Part shown: one piece after another, positions 55,298 through 64,000 of the stretch
Numbering within the stretch: position 1 is the first letter of the stretch
Layout: the number at the start of each line of letters is the position of its first letter
Origin: Micromonospora siamensis
GTDB lineage: Bacteria; Actinomycetota; Actinomycetes; Mycobacteriales; Micromonosporaceae
DNA: 64,000 nt
Reading direction: 5' to 3'
Assembly (NCBI RefSeq): GCF_900090305.1
Contig: NZ_LT607751.1
Coordinates: 2,046,001-2,110,000 of the forward strand
Made by a program: the position numbers and the translations under genes
Notes under the pieces: generated by a model
Database searches by the model: none
Told to the model about the DNA's origin: nothing
What the model saw: only the letters and a program-made list of their open reading frames with translations

Positions 55298-55400
55298 CGG
55301 GCGGCGCTATCGGCTGAACGACCGTTGGGGGTAAGTTTCTGGCACCAGTGATGCGGTGTGCGGCCCCGCGCGCCGTTGGAGTCCCAGGGAGGTCAGTGCG

Positions 55401-56498
55401 ATGAGCGGTGGTGACAAGCTCGATTTCGAGATCCGTCCGAATCCCGCGGCGGTATCGGCAGCCGACCGGGCCGCCCTGCTGGCCAACCCGGGCTTCGGCC
55501 GGGTCTTCACCGACCACATGGTCACCATCCGGTACGCCGAGGGCAAGGGCTGGTACGACGCCCGGGTCGAGGCCCGCGCGCCGATCCCGATGGACCCGGC
55601 TTCGGCCGTCCTGCACTACGCGCAAGAGATCTTCGAGGGGTTGAAGGCGTACCGCACGGCCGGTGGTGAGGTCACCATGTTCCGGCCGGAGGCGAACGCG
55701 GCGCGGTTCGTCGAGTCCGCCAAGCGGATGGCCATGCCCGAGCTGCCGCCGGAGACCTTCGTCGAGTCGCTGCGCCAGCTCGTCGAGATCGACCGCGAGT
55801 GGATCCCGGACGGGCCGGACGCCAGCCTCTACCTGCGGCCGTTCATGTTCGCCAGCGAGGTCTTCCTCGGGGTCCGCCCGGCCAACGAATACCTCTACTG
55901 CGTGATCGCCTCGCCGGCCGGGGCGTACTTCACCGGTGGCGTCAAGCCCATCACGGTCTGGGTCTCCCCGGACTACACCCGGGCGGCGCCCGGCGGCACC
56001 GGCGCGGCCAAGTGCGGCGGCAACTACGCCACCTCGCTGGTGGCCCAGGCCGAGGCGATCGAGGCGGGCTGCGACCAGGTGGTCTTCCTGGACGCGGTGG
56101 AACGGCGCTTCGTCGACGAACTCGGCGGCATGAACGTCTTCTTCGTCTACGACGACGACACCCTGGTCACGCCGCCGCTGACCGGCACCATCCTGCCGGG
56201 CATCACCCGCGACGCGATCCTCACGCTGGCCGCCGAGTCGGGGCTGCGGACCGAGGAGCGGCCGGTCAGCTTCGCCGACTGGCAGGCCGATGCCGCGAGC
56301 GGCCGGCTGCGTGAGGTCTTCGCCTGCGGCACCGCCGCGGTGATCACCCCGATCGGCCGGGTGAAGTTCCCGGACGGGGAGTTCCTGGTCGGCGGCGGCG
56401 AGCCGGGCCGGACCACCAACGCGCTGCGCCAGCAGCTGGTGGCGATCCAGCGCGGCGAGGCCGAGGACCGGCACGGCTGGGTGCGGCGGCTCCTCTGA
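55401..56498 (+). CDS. ilvE: Branched-chain amino acid aminotransferase
   Basis: 365 residues. GGGAGG precedes the ATG. Last step for Val, Leu and Ile: PLP-dependent transfer from glutamate. Seen: VLHYAQEIFEGLKAYR (near 73-88), PLP lysine in GAAKCGGNYATS (near 207), and the GTAAVITPIG block (near 313). Class IV fold, usual length. Downstream terminator at 56588. Confidence 0.96.
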   Translation: MSGGDKLDFEIRPNPAAVSAADRAALLANPGFGRVFTDHMVTIRYAEGKGWYDARVEARAPIPMDPASAVLHYAQEIFEGLKAYRTAGGEVTMFRPEANAARFVESAKRMAMPELPPETFVESLRQLVEIDREWIPDGPDASLYLRPFMFASEVFLGVRPANEYLYCVIASPAGAYFTGGVKPITVWVSPDYTRAAPGGTGAAKCGGNYATSLVAQAEAIEAGCDQVVFLDAVERRFVDELGGMNVFFVYDDDTLVTPPLTGTILPGITRDAILTLAAESGLRTEERPVSFADWQADAASGRLREVFACGTAAVITPIGRVKFPDGEFLVGGGEPGRTTNALRQQLVAIQRGEAEDRHGWVRRLL

Positions 56499-56706: not shown

Positions 56707-59700
56707 ATGTCCACACCGCTGGGCCGTCGCACCATCCGATCGAGGTTCTGGGCCGGCACCCGCCTGCGGTTCTCCGCGAGCCTCGCCGCGCTCGCCCTGC
56801 TGCTGACCCTCGGCGTACGGGCCGACCTGCCGGCCATCGTCCCGGCGGCGGCCGCCTGCGACTCCGTCGGCTACGCGTACGACGCGGCGGGGCAGTTGAC
56901 CGGCGTGCAGGACCAGGCCGGCGGCACCGCCCGGTACGGCTACGACCCGGCGGGCAACATCACCTCCGTCACCAACGACGGCAGCCCCGCCCTGGCCGTC
57001 CTGTCGGTCGTTCCGGCCCGGGCGGCGGTCGGCGCCGACGTCACACTCCAGGGCGGCTGCTTCTCGGACGTGGCCGCGGAGAACACCGTCCGGTTCAACG
57101 GCGTACCGGCCGCGGTGACCGAGGCCGGCGGCCACCGGCTGGTCGCCCGGGTCCCCGCTGGCGCGACCAGCGGCCCGATCACCGTCACGGTCGACGGGGT
57201 CACCGCGGCCAGCCCGCAGTCCTTCGTGGTCGCCGGGGCGGACGAGTCAGCCCCGACCGTCACCGACGTCTCCCCGACGGTGGTCGCGCCCGGCGGCACC
57301 GTCACCGTCTCCGGCACCGGTTTCGCCACCGACGCCGGCGACAACGCGGTCACCCTCAACCGCACCCGCGCCTTCACCGCCGCGGCAGCCGCCAGCAGCC
57401 TCACCGTCCAGGTGCCCTCGGGCGCAGCCTCCGGCCGGATCGGCCTGCGCACCCGGTACGGCAGCGGTGAGAGCGCCGCGGACGTCTTCGTCGCGCCCGC
57501 GCCGTACACCGTCGCGGACGTGGTGCACACCTCGCGGGTCGCGCTCGGCGCGCCGAAGTCGGTCGCCATCCCGACCGCCGGCAAGGTCGCGCTGGTCGTC
57601 TTCGACCTGGCCGAGGGGCAGCAGGCGAGCGTCAAGCTGGCCGACGGCACCTTCGGCAGCTGCGGCATCTCCACCGCCAAGGTCCTCGACCCGTACGGGC
57701 GGACCGCCGCGTCGTCCGGCTGCGTCGGCGCCACCGGCTTCATCGACACGGTCCGGGCCCGCACCGCCGGCACGTACACGCTGCTGCTGGCGGCGGCGGG
57801 CACCGCGACCGGGTCGGTCACCGCGACGGTGCAGGAGGTGCCGGCGGACGCGACGGCCGGCACCACCCCCGGCGGCGACCCGGTCACCGTCACCACCACC
57901 GTGCCCGGGCAGAACGCCGCCGTCACCTTCCCGGGCAGCACCGGGCAGCGCGTCTCGGTGAAGCTGAGCGGCGGCACCTACGGCACCTACAACGCCTCGG
58001 TCACCCTGCGTCGCCCCGGCGGCGGCACCGTCGTCAGCAACGGCTCCTGCGGGGCCGGCTGCTTCCTCGACGCCCTGGTGCTGCCCACCGAGGGCACCTA
58101 CACCCTCTTCGTCGACCCGCAGTCCACCTCCACCGGCGCGATCACGGCCCAGGTGTACGACGTGCCCGCCGACGCGGCGGTCACCGCGACGCCCGGCGGC
58201 CCGAAGGTCGGCGTCGGCACCACGGTCCCCGGCCAGAACGCCGTCGTGTCGTTCCCCGGCACCGCCGGGCAGCGGGTCGTCGTCCAGTTCACCGGCGGCA
58301 CGTACGGCACCTACAACGCCTCGGCGATCATCCGCAGGCCGGACGGGACGAACCTGACCGGCAGCGCGTACTGCGGCTCCTCCTGCATCTTCGACACCAC
58401 CGTCCTGCCGGCCGACGGGACGTACACCGTCCTGCTCAACCCGGACAACACCTACGTGGGCACGGTCGACGTCCAGGTGTACGACGTGCCGGCCGACGCC
58501 ACCGCGACCGCCACCCCCGGCGCCGGCCCGGTCACCGTGGCCACCACCGTCGGGCAGAACGCGGTGGTCTCCTTCGCCGGGACGGCGGGTCAGCGGATCT
58601 CGGTGCAGATGAGCGGTGGCACGTACGGCACGTACAACGCCTCGGCGATCATCCGGAAGCCGGACGGGACGAACCTGACCGGCAGCGCGTACTGCGGGTC
58701 GTCGTGCTTCTTCGACACGGTGGTGCTGCCGGTCGACGGCACGTACACCCTGTACCTCAACCCCGACGGGGTGACCGTCGGTCAGGTCGCGACGCAGATC
58801 AACGTGGTGCCGGCGGACGCCACGGTGACCGCCGTCCCGGGCGGCCCCGCCGTCACCCAGGGCACCACCGTGCCGGGGCAGAACGCGGTGGTCTCCTTCG
58901 CGGGGACGGCCGGTCAGCGGGTCTCGGTGCAGATGAGCGGTGGCACGTACGGCACGTACAACGCCTCGGCGATCATCCGGAAGCCGGACGGGACGAACCT
59001 GACCGGCAGCGCGTACTGCGGGTCGTCGTGCTTCTTCGACACGGTGGTGCTGCCGGTCGACGGCACGTACACCATCCTGCTGAACCCGGACGGCACCGCC
59101 GTGGGTGAGGTGACCACGCTGGTCAACGACGTGCCCGCGGACGCGGCGGCCAGCACCACGCCGGGCGGCGCCCAGGTCACCGTCACCACCACCGTGCCCG
59201 GGCAGAACGCGGTGGTCTCCTTCACCGGCACCGCCGGGCAGTCCGTCTCGGTCAACCTGACCGGCGGCACCTTCGGCACCTACAACGCCTCGGCCACGCT
59301 GCGCGCGCCGGACGGCAGCACCCTGGTCAGCGAGGGCTACTGCGGTACCAGTTGCTCGTTCAACGCGGTCACGCTGCCGGTGACCGGCACGTACACGGTC
59401 CTGGTGAACCCGAGCGGCACCACCCTCGGCGCGATCGGTGTCCGGGTCTACGACGTGCCGAACGACGCGGTCGCCAACACCACGCCGGGCGGCGCGGCGG
59501 TGTCGGTGACCACGACGGTGCCGGGACAGAACGCGGTGGTCTCCTTCCCGGCGACGGCGGGTCGGCGGGTCGCGGTGCAGCTCTCGGCCGGCACGTTCGG
59601 CACGAACGAGGCGGTGGTGACGCTGCGGAAGCCGGACGGCACGGCCGTGGTGAGCAACGGCAACTGCGGCGCCTCCTGCTTCCTGGACGTGTCCGCCCTG

Positions 59701-62700
59701 CCGGTGGACGGCACGTACACCGTGCTGGTCGACCCGAAGGGGACCGTGGTCGGCAACATCACCGTCAAGGTGCACGACGTGCCCGCCGACAGCACGGCGA
59801 CCGCCACCCCGGGCGGCGCGGCGGTGTCGGTGACCACGACGGTGCCGGGACAGAACGCGGTGGTCTCCTTCCCGGCGACGGCGGGTCAGCGGGTCGCGGT
59901 GCAGCTCTCGGCCGGCACGTTCGGCACGAACGAGGCGGTGGTGACGCTGCGGAAGCCGGACGGCACGGCCGTGGTGAGCAACGGCAACTGCGGCGCCTCC
60001 TGCTTCCTCGACACCACGGCGCTGCCGGCCGACGGCACGTACGCCGTGCTGGTCGATCCGAAGGTCACCGCGGTCGGCACGATCACCGTCAAGGTGTACG
60101 ACGTGCCGGCGGACCGGACGGCGAGCACCACGCCCAACGGGGCGGCCGTCACCCTGACCACCACCGTGCCGGGCCAGAACGGGGTGGTGTCGTTCCCCGC
60201 AACCGCCGGTCAGATCGTCACCGTCACCATGTCGGCGGGCTCCTACGCCGGTGGCAACGCGGCGGTCACCCTGCGCGCCCCGAACGGCGGCACCGTCACC
60301 AGCACCTCGTCCTGCGCCACGAGCTGCTCGTTCAGCTCGGTGTCGCTCGCCACGGCCGGCACGTACACCGTCCTGGTGGACCCGCTCGCGGCGGCGGTCG
60401 GCAGCCTGACGGTCCAGGTCCTCGACGTGCCGGTGGACGCCACCGTGGGCACCACCCCGGGCGGTGACCCGGTCACGCTCACCACCACGGTCCCCGGCCA
60501 GAACGGCGTGGTGTCCTTCCCCGGCACGGCCGGCCAGCGGGTGCTCGTGCAGGCGACGGGCGGCACCTACGGGACGTACAACGCGTCGGCGATCGTGCGC
60601 AAGCCGGACGGGTCGAACCTGACCGGCAGCACCTACTGCGGTTCCTCCTGCCTCTTCGACACCATGACGCTGCCGGTCACCGGCACGTACACCGTCTTCC
60701 TCGACCCGGCGGGCACCTACACCGGCTCGCTCACCGTCCGGGTGTACGACGTGCCGGCGGACGCGACGGCCACCGCCAGCGCGGGCGGCAGCGGGGTCGC
60801 CCTCACCACCACCGTGCCCGGGCAGAACGCGACGCTCTCCTTCACCGGCGCCGCCAACCAGCGGATCGTGGTGCAGGGCACCGGCGGCACCTACGGCACG
60901 TACAACGCCTCGCTGATCATCCGGAAGCCGGACGGGTCGAACCTGACCGGCAGCACGTACTGCGGGTCGTCGTGCTTCTTCGACACCACGACGTTGCCGG
61001 TCGGCGGCACGTACACCATGTTCCTGAACCCGGACGGGATGTCCACCGGCTCGGTCAGCCTGCGGATCTACGAGGTGCCGGCGGACGCCACGGCGACCGC
61101 GAGCGTCGGCGGGGACGCGGTCGCCCTCGGCACCACCGGGCCGGGCCAGAACGCCACGCTGTCGTTCGCCGGCACCGCGGGCCAGCGGATCGTCATCCAG
61201 GGGACCGGGGGCACCTACGGCACGTACAACGCCTCGGCGATCGTGCGCAAGCCGGACGGGTCGAACCTGACCGGCAGCGCGTACTGCGGGTCTTCGTGCT
61301 TCTTCGACGTCACCACGCTGCCGGTGACCGGCACGTACACGATCTTCCTGAACCCGGACGGGATGTTCACCGGCGCGGTCAATCTGCGGATCTACGACGT
61401 GCCGGCGGACGCCACGGGCACCGCGAGCGTCGGCGGGCCGCCGGCCACCCTCACCACCACCGGCCCCGGGCAGAACGCGGTGCTCTCCTTCACCGGCACC
61501 GCCGGGCAGCGGATCTCCGTGGTGGGCAGCGCCGGCACGTACGGCACGTACAACGCCTCGGCGATCGTGCGCAAGCCGGACGGGTCGAATCTGACCGGCA
61601 GCGCGTACTGCGGGTCGTCGTGCTTCTTCGACGTCACCACGCTGCCGGTGACCGGCACGTACACGATCTTCCTGAACCCGGACGGGATGTACACCGGCGC
61701 GGTCACCCTCCAGGTGAACGACGTACCGGCGAACGCCACTGTGAGCGCCACGCCGGGCGGGCCGACCGTCACCCTGACCACCACCGTCGCCGGCCAGAAC
61801 GCGGCGATGACCTTCGCCGGCACCGCCGGTCAGGTGGTCAGCGTGGTGATGAGCGCCGGCACGTACGGCACGTACAACGCCTCGGCGATCGTGCGCAAGC
61901 CGGACGGGTCGAACCTGACCGGCAGCGCGTACTGCGGGGCGTCCTGCACCTTCGCCTCGCTCACGCTGCCCACCACCGGCACGTACACGGTCTTCGTCGA
62001 CCCGTCGTCCACCGTGGTCGGCAGCCTCACCGGCGAGGTCCGGCTGCCCGCCGGGCTCACCGCCGCCGCTCCGAAGACCAGCAGCCCGAAGGCCGGCGCC
62101 CCGGCGAGCGGCTCGAAGAGCACGGCCAGGGCCGACGTCACGGAGACCTGGACGCCGGACCGATTCAACCTGGCCGGTGAGGACTGGGAGAGCCACCGCA
62201 CCGGCGCGTACGGCAACCTCCAGCCGGCGCTGCGCGCCGAGGCGGGCGCCACCGCGCTGGCCGGGCAGGCGCTGCTGCTCAACGGCAAGCCGCTGGCCGG
62301 GGTGACCCTCGCGGTGGGCCGCAAGTCCACCCGCACCGACGCCACCGGCCGGTTCCTGCTCACCGGGCTCACCGGCGGCCACCACGTCCTGGTGATCGAC
62401 GGGGCGACGGCGAGCACGCCGGGGCGGGCCTTCGGCCGCTTCGAGACCGGGGTTGACCTGCGGGCGGAGCAGACCACCGAGCTGTCGTACCCGATCTGGA
62501 TGACCCGGCTGGACACCGCGCACGCCGTGAAGATCGCGTCGCCGACGAAGCGGCAGACGGTGGTCACCACCCCGGCCATCCCCGGCTTCGAGGTACGGCT
62601 GCCCAAGGGCACCGTGATCCGGGACCGGGCCGGCAAGCGGGTCACCGAGCTCTCCATCACCGCCCTGCCGGTGGACCAGCCGCCGTTCCCGCTGCCGGTC

Positions 62701-64000
62701 GGGGTACGCACCCCGGTCTACTTCACCGTGCAGCCGGGCGGGTCGGTGGTGCTGCCCGAGGGCGCGCAGATCATCTACCCGAACACCCAGAAGCTGGCGC
62801 CGGGCAGCCGGCTGGACTTCTGGGACTACGACCCGGGCCGGGTGCCGTGCACGAAGGCGCCGGTGAAGTCGTACCCGAAGCCGCCGGCCAAGGCGGTCAA
62901 GGCGCCCTCGGTCTGCGCGGTCACCGGCGCCGAGGCCGGCTGGTACATCTACGGCCACGGCACCGTCACCCCCGACGGCCGGCAGATCGTGCCCGACCCG
63001 GACGTGCGGGTCTGGGAGTTCACCGGGGCGATGTTCAACGGCAGCGGCAAGCGCCCGGCCGGCTCCGGACCCGGTGAGGACGGCGACGACGGCGGCGACC
63101 CGGTCGACCTGGCCACCGGTCTCTTCGTCGACGAGCACACCGACCTGCTGGTCAACGACGTGCTGCCGATCTCGATCACCCGCACCTACCGGCAGAACGA
63201 CACCAACAGCCGCGAGTTCGGCATCGGCGCGAACTTCACCTACGGCATCTTCGTCTATTCCGAGCAGCAGTACGTCCAGGCCGACCTGGTGCTGCCGGAC
63301 AGCGGCAAGGTCCACTTCGACCGGGTGAGCCCCGGCACCGGCTGGACGGACGCCGTGTTCAAGGCGGTGAACACCACCGGGCCGTACCGGGACGCGGTGA
63401 TGAGCTGGAACGGCGACGGCTGGGACCTGGTCCGCAGCGACGGGCTGACCTTCGTCTTCGGCGAGAACGCGCCGTTGCAGTCGATCCGTGACCGGCACGG
63501 CAACCAGATCACCCTGACCCGGTCCAGCGGCGGACAGTCCGGCGACATCACCCAGATCACCTCGCCGAACGGCCGCTGGATCAAGCTCTCCTACAGCGGT
63601 GGCCGGGTCACCCGGGCACAGGACAACGCCGGGCGGGTCGTCCAGTACGGCTACGACACCTCCGGGCGGCTGACCTCGGTCACCTCGCCCGGCGGCCGGA
63701 CCACCACGTACGGCTACGACACCGCGCACCGGATGACCACGGTCACCGACGCCCGCGGCATCACCTACCTGACCAACACCTACGACGCCAACGGGCGGGT
63801 GGCCAGCCAGGCCATGCCGGACGGGGTCAGCTACCGGTTCGCGTACACCACCGACGCCAACGGCAGGGTGGTGAAGACGGCGGTCACCGAGCCGGACGGC
63901 AGCGTCCGGGAGACCAGCTTCGACGCCGACCGCCGGGTGGTCGCCGAGACCACCGCCGCCGGCACCGCCCAGGAGCGCACCTCCACCACCACCCGGGACC
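56707..64000 (+). CDS. Giant secreted RHS/YD-repeat protein (partial; continues past window)
   Basis: 2,431 codons are open from ATG 56707 (GGGGGAGG upstream) to the edge. Layout: signal region 1-50; a lone YD-like repeat 54-90 (YAYDAAGQLTGV, YGYDPAGNITSV); two IPT/TIG-like domains near 93-175 and 182-262; one diverged repeat 270-377; thirteen repeats of 108 residues (one 107) at 378-1780; a carboxypeptidase-regulatory-like domain near 1850-1920; then a DUF6531-like domain starting GGDPVDLATGLF (near 2129) and YD repeats (YGYDTSGRLTSV, YGYDTAHRMTTV) from about 2315. RHS proteins build a shell around a C-terminal toxin or effector; that end is not visible. Repeats look like beta-sandwich (PPC-like) modules. 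Confidence 0.9.
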   Translation, partial: MSTPLGRRTIRSRFWAGTRLRFSASLAALALLLTLGVRADLPAIVPAAAACDSVGYAYDAAGQLTGVQDQAGGTARYGYDPAGNITSVTNDGSPALAVLSVVPARAAVGADVTLQGGCFSDVAAENTVRFNGVPAAVTEAGGHRLVARVPAGATSGPITVTVDGVTAASPQSFVVAGADESAPTVTDVSPTVVAPGGTVTVSGTGFATDAGDNAVTLNRTRAFTAAAAASSLTVQVPSGAASGRIGLRTRYGSGESAADVFVAPAPYTVADVVHTSRVALGAPKSVAIPTAGKVALVVFDLAEGQQASVKLADGTFGSCGISTAKVLDPYGRTAASSGCVGATGFIDTVRARTAGTYTLLLAAAGTATGSVTATVQEVPADATAGTTPGGDPVTVTTTVPGQNAAVTFPGSTGQRVSVKLSGGTYGTYNASVTLRRPGGGTVVSNGSCGAGCFLDALVLPTEGTYTLFVDPQSTSTGAITAQVYDVPADAAVTATPGGPKVGVGTTVPGQNAVVSFPGTAGQRVVVQFTGGTYGTYNASAIIRRPDGTNLTGSAYCGSSCIFDTTVLPADGTYTVLLNPDNTYVGTVDVQVYDVPADATATATPGAGPVTVATTVGQNAVVSFAGTAGQRISVQMSGGTYGTYNASAIIRKPDGTNLTGSAYCGSSCFFDTVVLPVDGTYTLYLNPDGVTVGQVATQINVVPADATVTAVPGGPAVTQGTTVPGQNAVVSFAGTAGQRVSVQMSGGTYGTYNASAIIRKPDGTNLTGSAYCGSSCFFDTVVLPVDGTYTILLNPDGTAVGEVTTLVNDVPADAAASTTPGGAQVTVTTTVPGQNAVVSFTGTAGQSVSVNLTGGTFGTYNASATLRAPDGSTLVSEGYCGTSCSFNAVTLPVTGTYTVLVNPSGTTLGAIGVRVYDVPNDAVANTTPGGAAVSVTTTVPGQNAVVSFPATAGRRVAVQLSAGTFGTNEAVVTLRKPDGTAVVSNGNCGASCFLDVSALPVDGTYTVLVDPKGTVVGNITVKVHDVPADSTATATPGGAAVSVTTTVPGQNAVVSFPATAGQRVAVQLSAGTFGTNEAVVTLRKPDGTAVVSNGNCGASCFLDTTALPADGTYAVLVDPKVTAVGTITVKVYDVPADRTASTTPNGAAVTLTTTVPGQNGVVSFPATAGQIVTVTMSAGSYAGGNAAVTLRAPNGGTVTSTSSCATSCSFSSVSLATAGTYTVLVDPLAAAVGSLTVQVLDVPVDATVGTTPGGDPVTLTTTVPGQNGVVSFPGTAGQRVLVQATGGTYGTYNASAIVRKPDGSNLTGSTYCGSSCLFDTMTLPVTGTYTVFLDPAGTYTGSLTVRVYDVPADATATASAGGSGVALTTTVPGQNATLSFTGAANQRIVVQGTGGTYGTYNASLIIRKPDGSNLTGSTYCGSSCFFDTTTLPVGGTYTMFLNPDGMSTGSVSLRIYEVPADATATASVGGDAVALGTTGPGQNATLSFAGTAGQRIVIQGTGGTYGTYNASAIVRKPDGSNLTGSAYCGSSCFFDVTTLPVTGTYTIFLNPDGMFTGAVNLRIYDVPADATGTASVGGPPATLTTTGPGQNAVLSFTGTAGQRISVVGSAGTYGTYNASAIVRKPDGSNLTGSAYCGSSCFFDVTTLPVTGTYTIFLNPDGMYTGAVTLQVNDVPANATVSATPGGPTVTLTTTVAGQNAAMTFAGTAGQVVSVVMSAGTYGTYNASAIVRKPDGSNLTGSAYCGASCTFASLTLPTTGTYTVFVDPSSTVVGSLTGEVRLPAGLTAAAPKTSSPKAGAPASGSKSTARADVTETWTPDRFNLAGEDWESHRTGAYGNLQPALRAEAGATALAGQALLLNGKPLAGVTLAVGRKSTRTDATGRFLLTGLTGGHHVLVIDGATASTPGRAFGRFETGVDLRAEQTTELSYPIWMTRLDTAHAVKIASPTKRQTVVTTPAIPGFEVRLPKGTVIRDRAGKRVTELSITALPVDQPPFPLPVGVRTPVYFTVQPGGSVVLPEGAQIIYPNTQKLAPGSRLDFWDYDPGRVPCTKAPVKSYPKPPAKAVKAPSVCAVTGAEAGWYIYGHGTVTPDGRQIVPDPDVRVWEFTGAMFNGSGKRPAGSGPGEDGDDGGDPVDLATGLFVDEHTDLLVNDVLPISITRTYRQNDTNSREFGIGANFTYGIFVYSEQQYVQADLVLPDSGKVHFDRVSPGTGWTDAVFKAVNTTGPYRDAVMSWNGDGWDLVRSDGLTFVFGENAPLQSIRDRHGNQITLTRSSGGQSGDITQITSPNGRWIKLSYSGGRVTRAQDNAGRVVQYGYDTSGRLTSVTSPGGRTTTYGYDTAHRMTTVTDARGITYLTNTYDANGRVASQAMPDGVSYRFAYTTDANGRVVKTAVTEPDGSVRETSFDADRRVVAETTAAGTAQERTSTTTRD
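57838..62046 (+). repeat. Thirteen in-frame ~324-bp tandem repeats in the RHS-family gene
   Basis: Units start at 57838, 58162, 58486, 58807, 59131, 59455, 59779, 60103, 60427, 60751, 61075, 61399 and 61723; spacing is 324 bases except one of 321. Each begins near VPADAT, contains PGQNAxVSF, GTYGTYNAS or a variant, and an invariant C-x3-C pair. Bases 58598-58749 and 58922-59073 are identical (152 bases). Confidence 0.95.

Follow-up and report, generated by a model that had tools for sequence, protein, structure and literature searches.

A long-armed RHS toxin gene of Micromonospora siamensis, with a separable arm and haem peroxidase neighbours among its relatives

Introduction

The RHS gene that begins at position 56707 of a 64,000-nucleotide stretch of the Micromonospora siamensis genome (contig NZ_LT607751.1, positions 2,046,001 to 2,110,000; this whole stretch, G000:C1:2046001-2110000, is called the window below) fits well within the RHS toxin class; what is surprising lies around it, namely a separable arm and, in two phyla, an exported peroxidase encoded alongside. 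Its product, in which a signal peptide, an arm of PPC-type repeats and a conserved neck precede an RHS shell and an EC869-like DNase domain, is probably a polymorphic toxin with a long arm, encoded in a locus whose next two genes specify an immunity candidate and an exported DUF7405 protein. To our knowledge, little has been established about how the RHS toxins of Gram-positive soil bacteria are delivered to their targets. With a gene of its own in other phyla, the arm is a definable part that can be separated from the toxin; the presence of peroxidase genes of two families beside these toxins in two phyla suggests that toxin assembly or attachment to the surface includes an oxidative step; and for some members of DUF7405, a large family whose name marks its function as unknown, the locus may offer a first functional context.

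An arm that is fused or encoded separately

The arm constitutes a module in its own right. When public genomes were scanned with the neck alignment, 46 loci were recovered that contain 48 neck-bearing bodies. Of these bodies, 21 are fused to an arm (20 from Actinomycetota and one from Chloroflexi), whereas for 19 the arm is encoded by its own gene immediately upstream and in the same orientation, with spacings of -43 to 100 bp (intergenic gaps and overlaps are approximate throughout, as gene starts were taken as longest-open-reading-frame starts). The 19 split bodies come from Pseudomonadota (10), Acidobacteriota (seven), Omnitrophota (one) and Acidimicrobiales, a member of Actinomycetota (one), and the split form accounts for 18 of the 27 non-actinobacterial bodies. 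Six of the 48 bodies are without an adjacent arm gene (one apparently broken, two second copies, one with 1.5 kb between and two fragments), and two lie at contig ends. Among the fused loci, the frame is broken elsewhere in L076 and L081 and cut in L074; as regards the split loci, a contig end coincides with or lies close to the start of the arm gene in L088, L092, L097 and L104, and the arm of L099 matches TIG only. A signal-peptide-like start is present on both genes in most of the 20 pairs displayed, and kelch-like motifs stand ahead of the neck in many split bodies (kelch families are present in the precomputed Pfam annotation). Second RHS bodies or second arm genes occur in tandem with the first in L087, L088 and L101.

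The same two arrangements recur in further genomes and on plasmids. In six of seven further loci from the order to which Massilia belongs, the arm reading frame abuts or overlaps that of the body, while L147 shows neither (the start of the body is unclear in L140 and L146); the three further actinomycete loci comprise two fused ones and the broken L144. On a Burkholderia ambifaria plasmid, arm and body are annotated as two genes separated by 13 bp, and three Streptomyces plasmids carry the fused form, two with a full arm and one with a short arm of two PPC units. The occurrence of two parts as a fusion in one lineage and as neighbouring genes elsewhere is commonly taken as evidence that they work together. 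That head and RHS part might be two proteins, the objection foreseen when the gene was first read from its sequence, does not apply here, where a single frame encodes both, but does describe the arrangement of the split bodies elsewhere.

A search with the arm gave 408 matches and one with the neck region (residues 1840-2260) gave 678; the best 120 of each were analysed, yielding 214 distinct proteins, and the relatives considered are thus those matched by arm or neck at no less than 0.55 times the length rather than a survey of all RHS proteins, with domain counts in relatives and loci derived from profiles built on the present protein (P0001) or from pattern matches. DUF6531 together with the RHS-associated core was found in 123 of the 214 listed proteins, and among these 123 RHS relatives, three or more PPC-type repeats occur in 102, TIG domains in 98 and, under a strict pattern, an N-terminal YD pair in 74 (73 of them TIG-bearing); a YD pair near the N-terminus was also seen in 11 of the 91 listed proteins without the core. 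The head had been described as unusual for an RHS protein, which holds for its length only: the median start of DUF6531 in the 123 relatives is residue 1155, and a start at or beyond residue 2000 is rarer, being seen in 19, 13 of which are this Micromonospora family, whereas the type of head is commonplace among them. Von Willebrand D domains and, in one protein, a NucA/NucB DNase accompany arm-like PPC repeats elsewhere (P0026, P0030, P0120 and others), and judging from such sequences this type of arm may serve other cargo too.

Haem peroxidase genes beside the loci

In all three annotated Streptomyces plasmids examined (of five Streptomyces matches), a DyP-type peroxidase gene lies 3' of the RHS gene, and a gene for a cytochrome c peroxidase (CCP) precedes the arm gene on the plasmid of B. 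ambifaria. All 46 genome loci were searched by tblastn with these plasmid proteins as single queries, a design that would miss other peroxidase families. A di-haem CCP/MauG gene was found beside nine of 12 Pseudomonadota loci; where at least 1 kb of upstream sequence is present, it lies upstream in eight of nine, at a distance of 83-476 bp and divergently oriented in seven. As for the remaining Pseudomonadota, L103 has the CCP gene on the downstream side, L093 lacks it, and none was seen in the truncated loci L088 and L092. Of the 15 fused loci that are not from Micromonospora, 10 have a DyP gene at a distance of 345 bp to 4.9 kb, L070, L079 and L080 lack one, and L071 and L074 are cut. In all six Micromonospora loci, the slot taken elsewhere by the peroxidases is occupied by DUF7405. 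The further genomes repeat the pattern, with CCP in four of seven (three upstream within 300 bp and one downstream) and DyP in three of three.

Several features bear on the nature of these enzymes. Two CxxCH motifs are present in each of the ten CCPs displayed, PF03150 was matched by the one neighbour CCP tested, an RR motif is found near the start of many of the DyPs, and the best structural match of the DyP profile is of the YcdB/EfeB type. MauG carries out cofactor formation on a partner protein (PMC6405878), and tyrosine and tryptophan radicals are possible in DyP enzymes (PMC10646903). No description of the two-gene arm/body form or of a link between RHS proteins and peroxidases was found in the accessible parts of the open-licence papers searched. 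Oxidative maturation or cross-linking of the arm or shell appears the likeliest use of such an enzyme, albeit a use that should be entertained with considerable caution.

Reading frame, arm, shell and toxin domain

The frame opens with an ATG at window position 56707 on the plus strand and, as the sequence-only reading had stated, runs uninterrupted for 2,431 codons to the window end; past position 64000 it meets neither an immediate stop nor a frameshift and continues for 819 codons to a stop at L009:9958-9960 (window-equivalent 66457-66459, an L009 position being the window position minus 56499), for a total of 3,250 amino acids. A hidden Markov model search of Pfam and NCBIfam, as had been suggested, matched RHS repeats, PPC, TIG, DUF6531, the RHS-associated core and PF21111. 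All features of the protein described below lie on the plus strand.

A signal peptide, judged by eye from the sequence, comprises residues 1-50 (56707..56856) and is directly followed by Cys51, present in 13 of 13 orthologs, and by an N-terminal YD (RHS) repeat pair at residues 51-93 (56857..56985; PF05593, 36 bits, and 40.3 bits in a second search). Two IPT/TIG domains (residues 94-264; 56986..57498) lead to the PPC-type units, for which the thirteen repeats originally counted correspond to 13 regular units of 108 residues each (one of 107) at residues 377-1779 (57835..62043), each with a CxxxC pair, and are preceded by a divergent fourteenth at residues 265-376 (57499..57834), recognised by a local profile match. 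PPC domain PF04151 scores 152.5 bits against a cut-off of 25.9 over eight stretches. Fourteen units are present in 13 of 13 listed orthologs and 13 in L067, one of the six Micromonospora genome loci, and the number ranges from 0 to 19 across the wider RHS set; the repeats have evolved only partly in register, the best match being to the same index in 119 of 156 cases. There are 34 cysteines, readable as 17 neighbour pairs; all 13 orthologs share 15 of the pairs, while the other two are kept in 11 and 12 orthologs, respectively. Foldseek TM scores for the arm model are low over the whole model, and a domain-level look was used instead. The arm-neck linker (residues 1780-1839; 62044..62223) is the least conserved part of the chain, with 53% mean identity among orthologs.

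A transthyretin or carboxypeptidase-regulatory-like domain (residues 1840-1936; 62224..62514) precedes the neck proper, a conserved region without a Pfam match (residues 1937-2124; 62515..63078; alignment A1). DUF6531 (PF20148; residues 2130-2202; 63094..63312) and the YD/RHS shell follow, the latter running from residue 2203 (63313..64000) on to L009:9147; the structure model predicts the RHS shell fold and is of low confidence in the neck. The RHS-associated core (L009:9148-9378) contains DPxG motifs at residues 3030 and 3054 with identical spacing in 13 of 13 orthologs, and a hydrophobic, Gly-rich pre-toxin segment (L009:9379-9582) leads to the EC869-like DNase domain (L009:9583-9957), which is directly followed by the stop codon.

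That the chain ends in a toxin, at first a conjecture, gains support from this last domain, which scores 60.7 bits against PF21111 (cut-off 27), the family of EC869-like toxins of contact-dependent inhibition (CDI), and matches solved EC869-type CdiA-CT structures (4zqu, E 8.5e-11; 4g6u, E 2.1e-9). In the review PMC9086364, the active-site residues of the Zn-dependent DNases are given as E177, D198, S209 and K211, whose equivalents by alignment (with a chain-numbering offset of 5) are E3136, D3151, S3160 and K3162; these four are kept in 13 of 13 orthologs. The orthologs include P0012 (L054, from Micromonospora pallida), whose toxin end diverges past the catalytic residues and is about 50 residues shorter than that of P0001. 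Among the 11 relatives left when P0012 is set aside for its divergent end, identity is 84% for the toxin and 83% for the shell, which is at odds with the hypervariable C-terminus that had been anticipated; other C-terminal domains are found across the wider family in the precomputed Pfam annotation.

Immunity candidate, DUF7405 and genome setting

A small immunity gene had been named as something to look for downstream, and a 146-residue candidate adjoins the toxin at L009:10023-10463, 62 bp past the RHS stop; it accompanies the toxin in eight of eight fetched ortholog loci, at 58-84% identity. The DUF7405 gene (495 residues; L009:10468-11955) comes next and completes the order RHS gene, immunity candidate, DUF7405 gene; its product contains the sequence motif SRRTMLA as well as a cysteine that follows LAA, and an RR motif occurs near the start of all seven DUF7405 proteins displayed. 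In a survey of the genus, the neck was detected at 81% identity or higher in 12 of 151 genomes (and at about 51% in two more), and the immunity gene was found in the same 12, as was DUF7405 (as two pieces in the L054 genome, G137). The latter gene is additionally represented by a fragment with a stop in G015 (G015:C40; L149:9682-9975), a genome in which the neck and immunity gene were not found; the fragment is possibly the remnant of a lost locus.

The host genome measures 6.25 Mb, and the closest named relatives among the matches listed are Micromonospora. The 5' neighbour is a branched-chain aminotransferase gene of the ilvE type (window 55356-56498), upstream in just two of eight ortholog loci (L054 and L055). 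None of the RHS, immunity-candidate and DUF7405 genes was matched by PADLOC, and a DNA self-search of the genome with the RHS region gave only short further matches. Five other RHS-repeat frames of 2,167-2,937 residues are present in the same genome, at about 31, 1660, 2234, 2828 and 4673 kb of G000:C1. A second, distant RHS protein (L148; G000:C1:4666500-4677500, reverse strand) carries a C-terminal EC869-like domain at 31% identity and has an immunity-like gene (35%) nearby.

Proposed working and competing explanations

A mechanism may be sketched from the observed domains, catalytic residues, gene order, co-occurrence, fusion and fission and peroxidase adjacency, whereas export, autocleavage, delivery, DNase activity, the immunity function and the role of the peroxidase are ones that we infer from the families named. 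The chain would be exported by way of its signal peptide, and the Cys-paired PPC arm would carry the RHS shell out to the cell wall or past it; surface display of the arm is plausible. The shell would fold round the C-terminal domain, with the DPxG aspartyl motif freeing the toxin inside it; on contact, the EC869-type domain would enter the competitor and degrade its DNA, and the immunity protein would shield the producer cell. Where present, the adjacent exported haem peroxidase (CCP/MauG or DyP) might mature or cross-link the arm or shell extracellularly. In its fullest form, put forward tentatively, the proposal is that of an unrecognised secreted weapon of several parts. These would be an RHS body, a PPC arm (fused to the body in actinomycetes, a protein of its own in many relatives from outside Actinomycetota) and an exported haem peroxidase dedicated to the system, by which the arm or shell would be oxidatively matured, cross-linked or anchored; CCP/MauG and DyP enzymes would have been recruited to the same job, and DUF7405 would be a third, as yet unrecognised, oxidoreductase.

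A number of results weigh against this proposal. A peroxidase was found in none of the 13 loci of Acidobacteriota and other phyla, many of which are cut by contig ends, and in only 19 of the 40 genome loci outside Micromonospora in total; it is likewise missing from L070, L079, L080, L093, L146 and L147, and a scan of ten neighbour proteins from six loci without a peroxidase revealed no peroxidase family. For DUF7405, position is the sole basis for assigning it the same job as the peroxidases. The family is large (2,233 homologs counted, most of unknown context), comparison with the Protein Data Bank gave no convincing match, and its identification as a DyP found no support in the sequence: hhalign comparisons with three and nine DyP sequences, using shallow profiles, yielded chance-level short matches only, one of them in the signal peptide. 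The immunity candidate matches CdiI family PF07262 in three of nine orthologs at E 0.01, its best score of 19.9 bits being below the cut-off of 25; no wall anchor was seen in the RHS protein; and, on sequence comparison, the toxin tip is not hypervariable within the genus.

The strongest competing explanation, though on balance an unlikely one, is that of an ordinary long-armed RHS toxin beside which the peroxidases are hitch-hiking stress genes, brought there by shared ancestry or hot-spot insertion and without a role in the toxin. Both families are common, with 1-6 DyP copies (11 genomes) and 1-5 CCP_MauG copies (11 genomes) in the genomes behind 22 loci; the six loci named above as lacking a peroxidase and the 13 of 13 loci from other phyla are as this explanation would have it, and some loci with matching gene layouts (L085/L089, L072/L073 and L081-L083) look like close kin, such that the counts are not independent. 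What it must account for is that a random 21-kb stretch would hold such a peroxidase with a chance of about 0.8-0.9%, against 10 of 15 observed for DyP and eight of nine for CCP; these chance figures assume random placement and independent loci, which related loci are not, and the DyP figure uses 10 of 13, with two contig-end loci left out. Furthermore, the adjacency recurs in the additional genomes and on plasmids, and the place is occupied by two distinct exported peroxidase families in two cell-envelope types.

A second alternative concerns the N-terminal YD pair, which might act as a clasp whose hairpins dock on the shell by beta-strand complementation, looping the arm or joining arm and body of the two-gene form. 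The suggestion is prompted by the position of a true YD pair immediately behind the signal peptide, at a distance of over 2,000 residues from the shell, and by the presence of the pair in both fused and split forms. For 33 of 74 proteins, its best shell match lies in a common stretch some 640-680 residues ahead of the core. The match falls elsewhere in the other 41, the strict pair is missing from 25 of the 98 listed TIG-bearing RHS relatives, and Cys51 and Cys118, each present in 13 of 13 orthologs, suggest that the pair may instead be tied to the first TIG domain, all of which renders a clasp improbable. That the protein is a teneurin-like adhesin, with a shell for cell-cell recognition and a vestigial nuclease, is very improbable indeed, given that neck profile A1 finds no teneurin chain (9pt5 or 9ifo), that no NHL domain is among the Pfam matches at E 0.1, and that all 13 orthologs have an intact catalytic set and the immunity candidate is retained; membership of the teneurins was rejected on the first two counts.

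Comparison with known systems

Secreted RHS toxins with N-terminal non-RHS modules are familiar from Gram-positive bacteria through WapA of Bacillus. Compared with the Rhs effectors of the type VI secretion system (8qja, Tse15, RhsP, RhsA, Tse5 and Tre23), the present protein is distinguished by its signal peptide and arm, and no component of that system scored over the cut-off among the Pfam or NCBIfam matches. The bacterial teneurin-like proteins (PMC13018210) have predicted adhesion domains within residues 1-397; here DUF6531 is present, NHL was not found, the neck is not detectably related and the arm is longer. As regards their FN-plug, the neck profile picked up no teneurin chain, in a region where the structure model is of low confidence. 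BthA and other MauG di-haem enzymes share with the neighbour CCPs the two CxxCH motifs (ten of ten) and PF03150 (one tested), and differ in the gene context reported in PMC6405878, which is a phosphatase rather than an RHS gene. The closest likeness is to CDI toxins of the EC869/TA271 type (PF21111; 4g6u and 4zqu), with which the protein shares a C-terminal PD-(D/E)XK domain, the E/D/S/K residues and a small gene directly downstream; the carrier, in contrast, is an actinomycete RHS protein with a signal peptide in place of a CdiA filament, accompanied by an immunity candidate that is only weakly CdiI-like.
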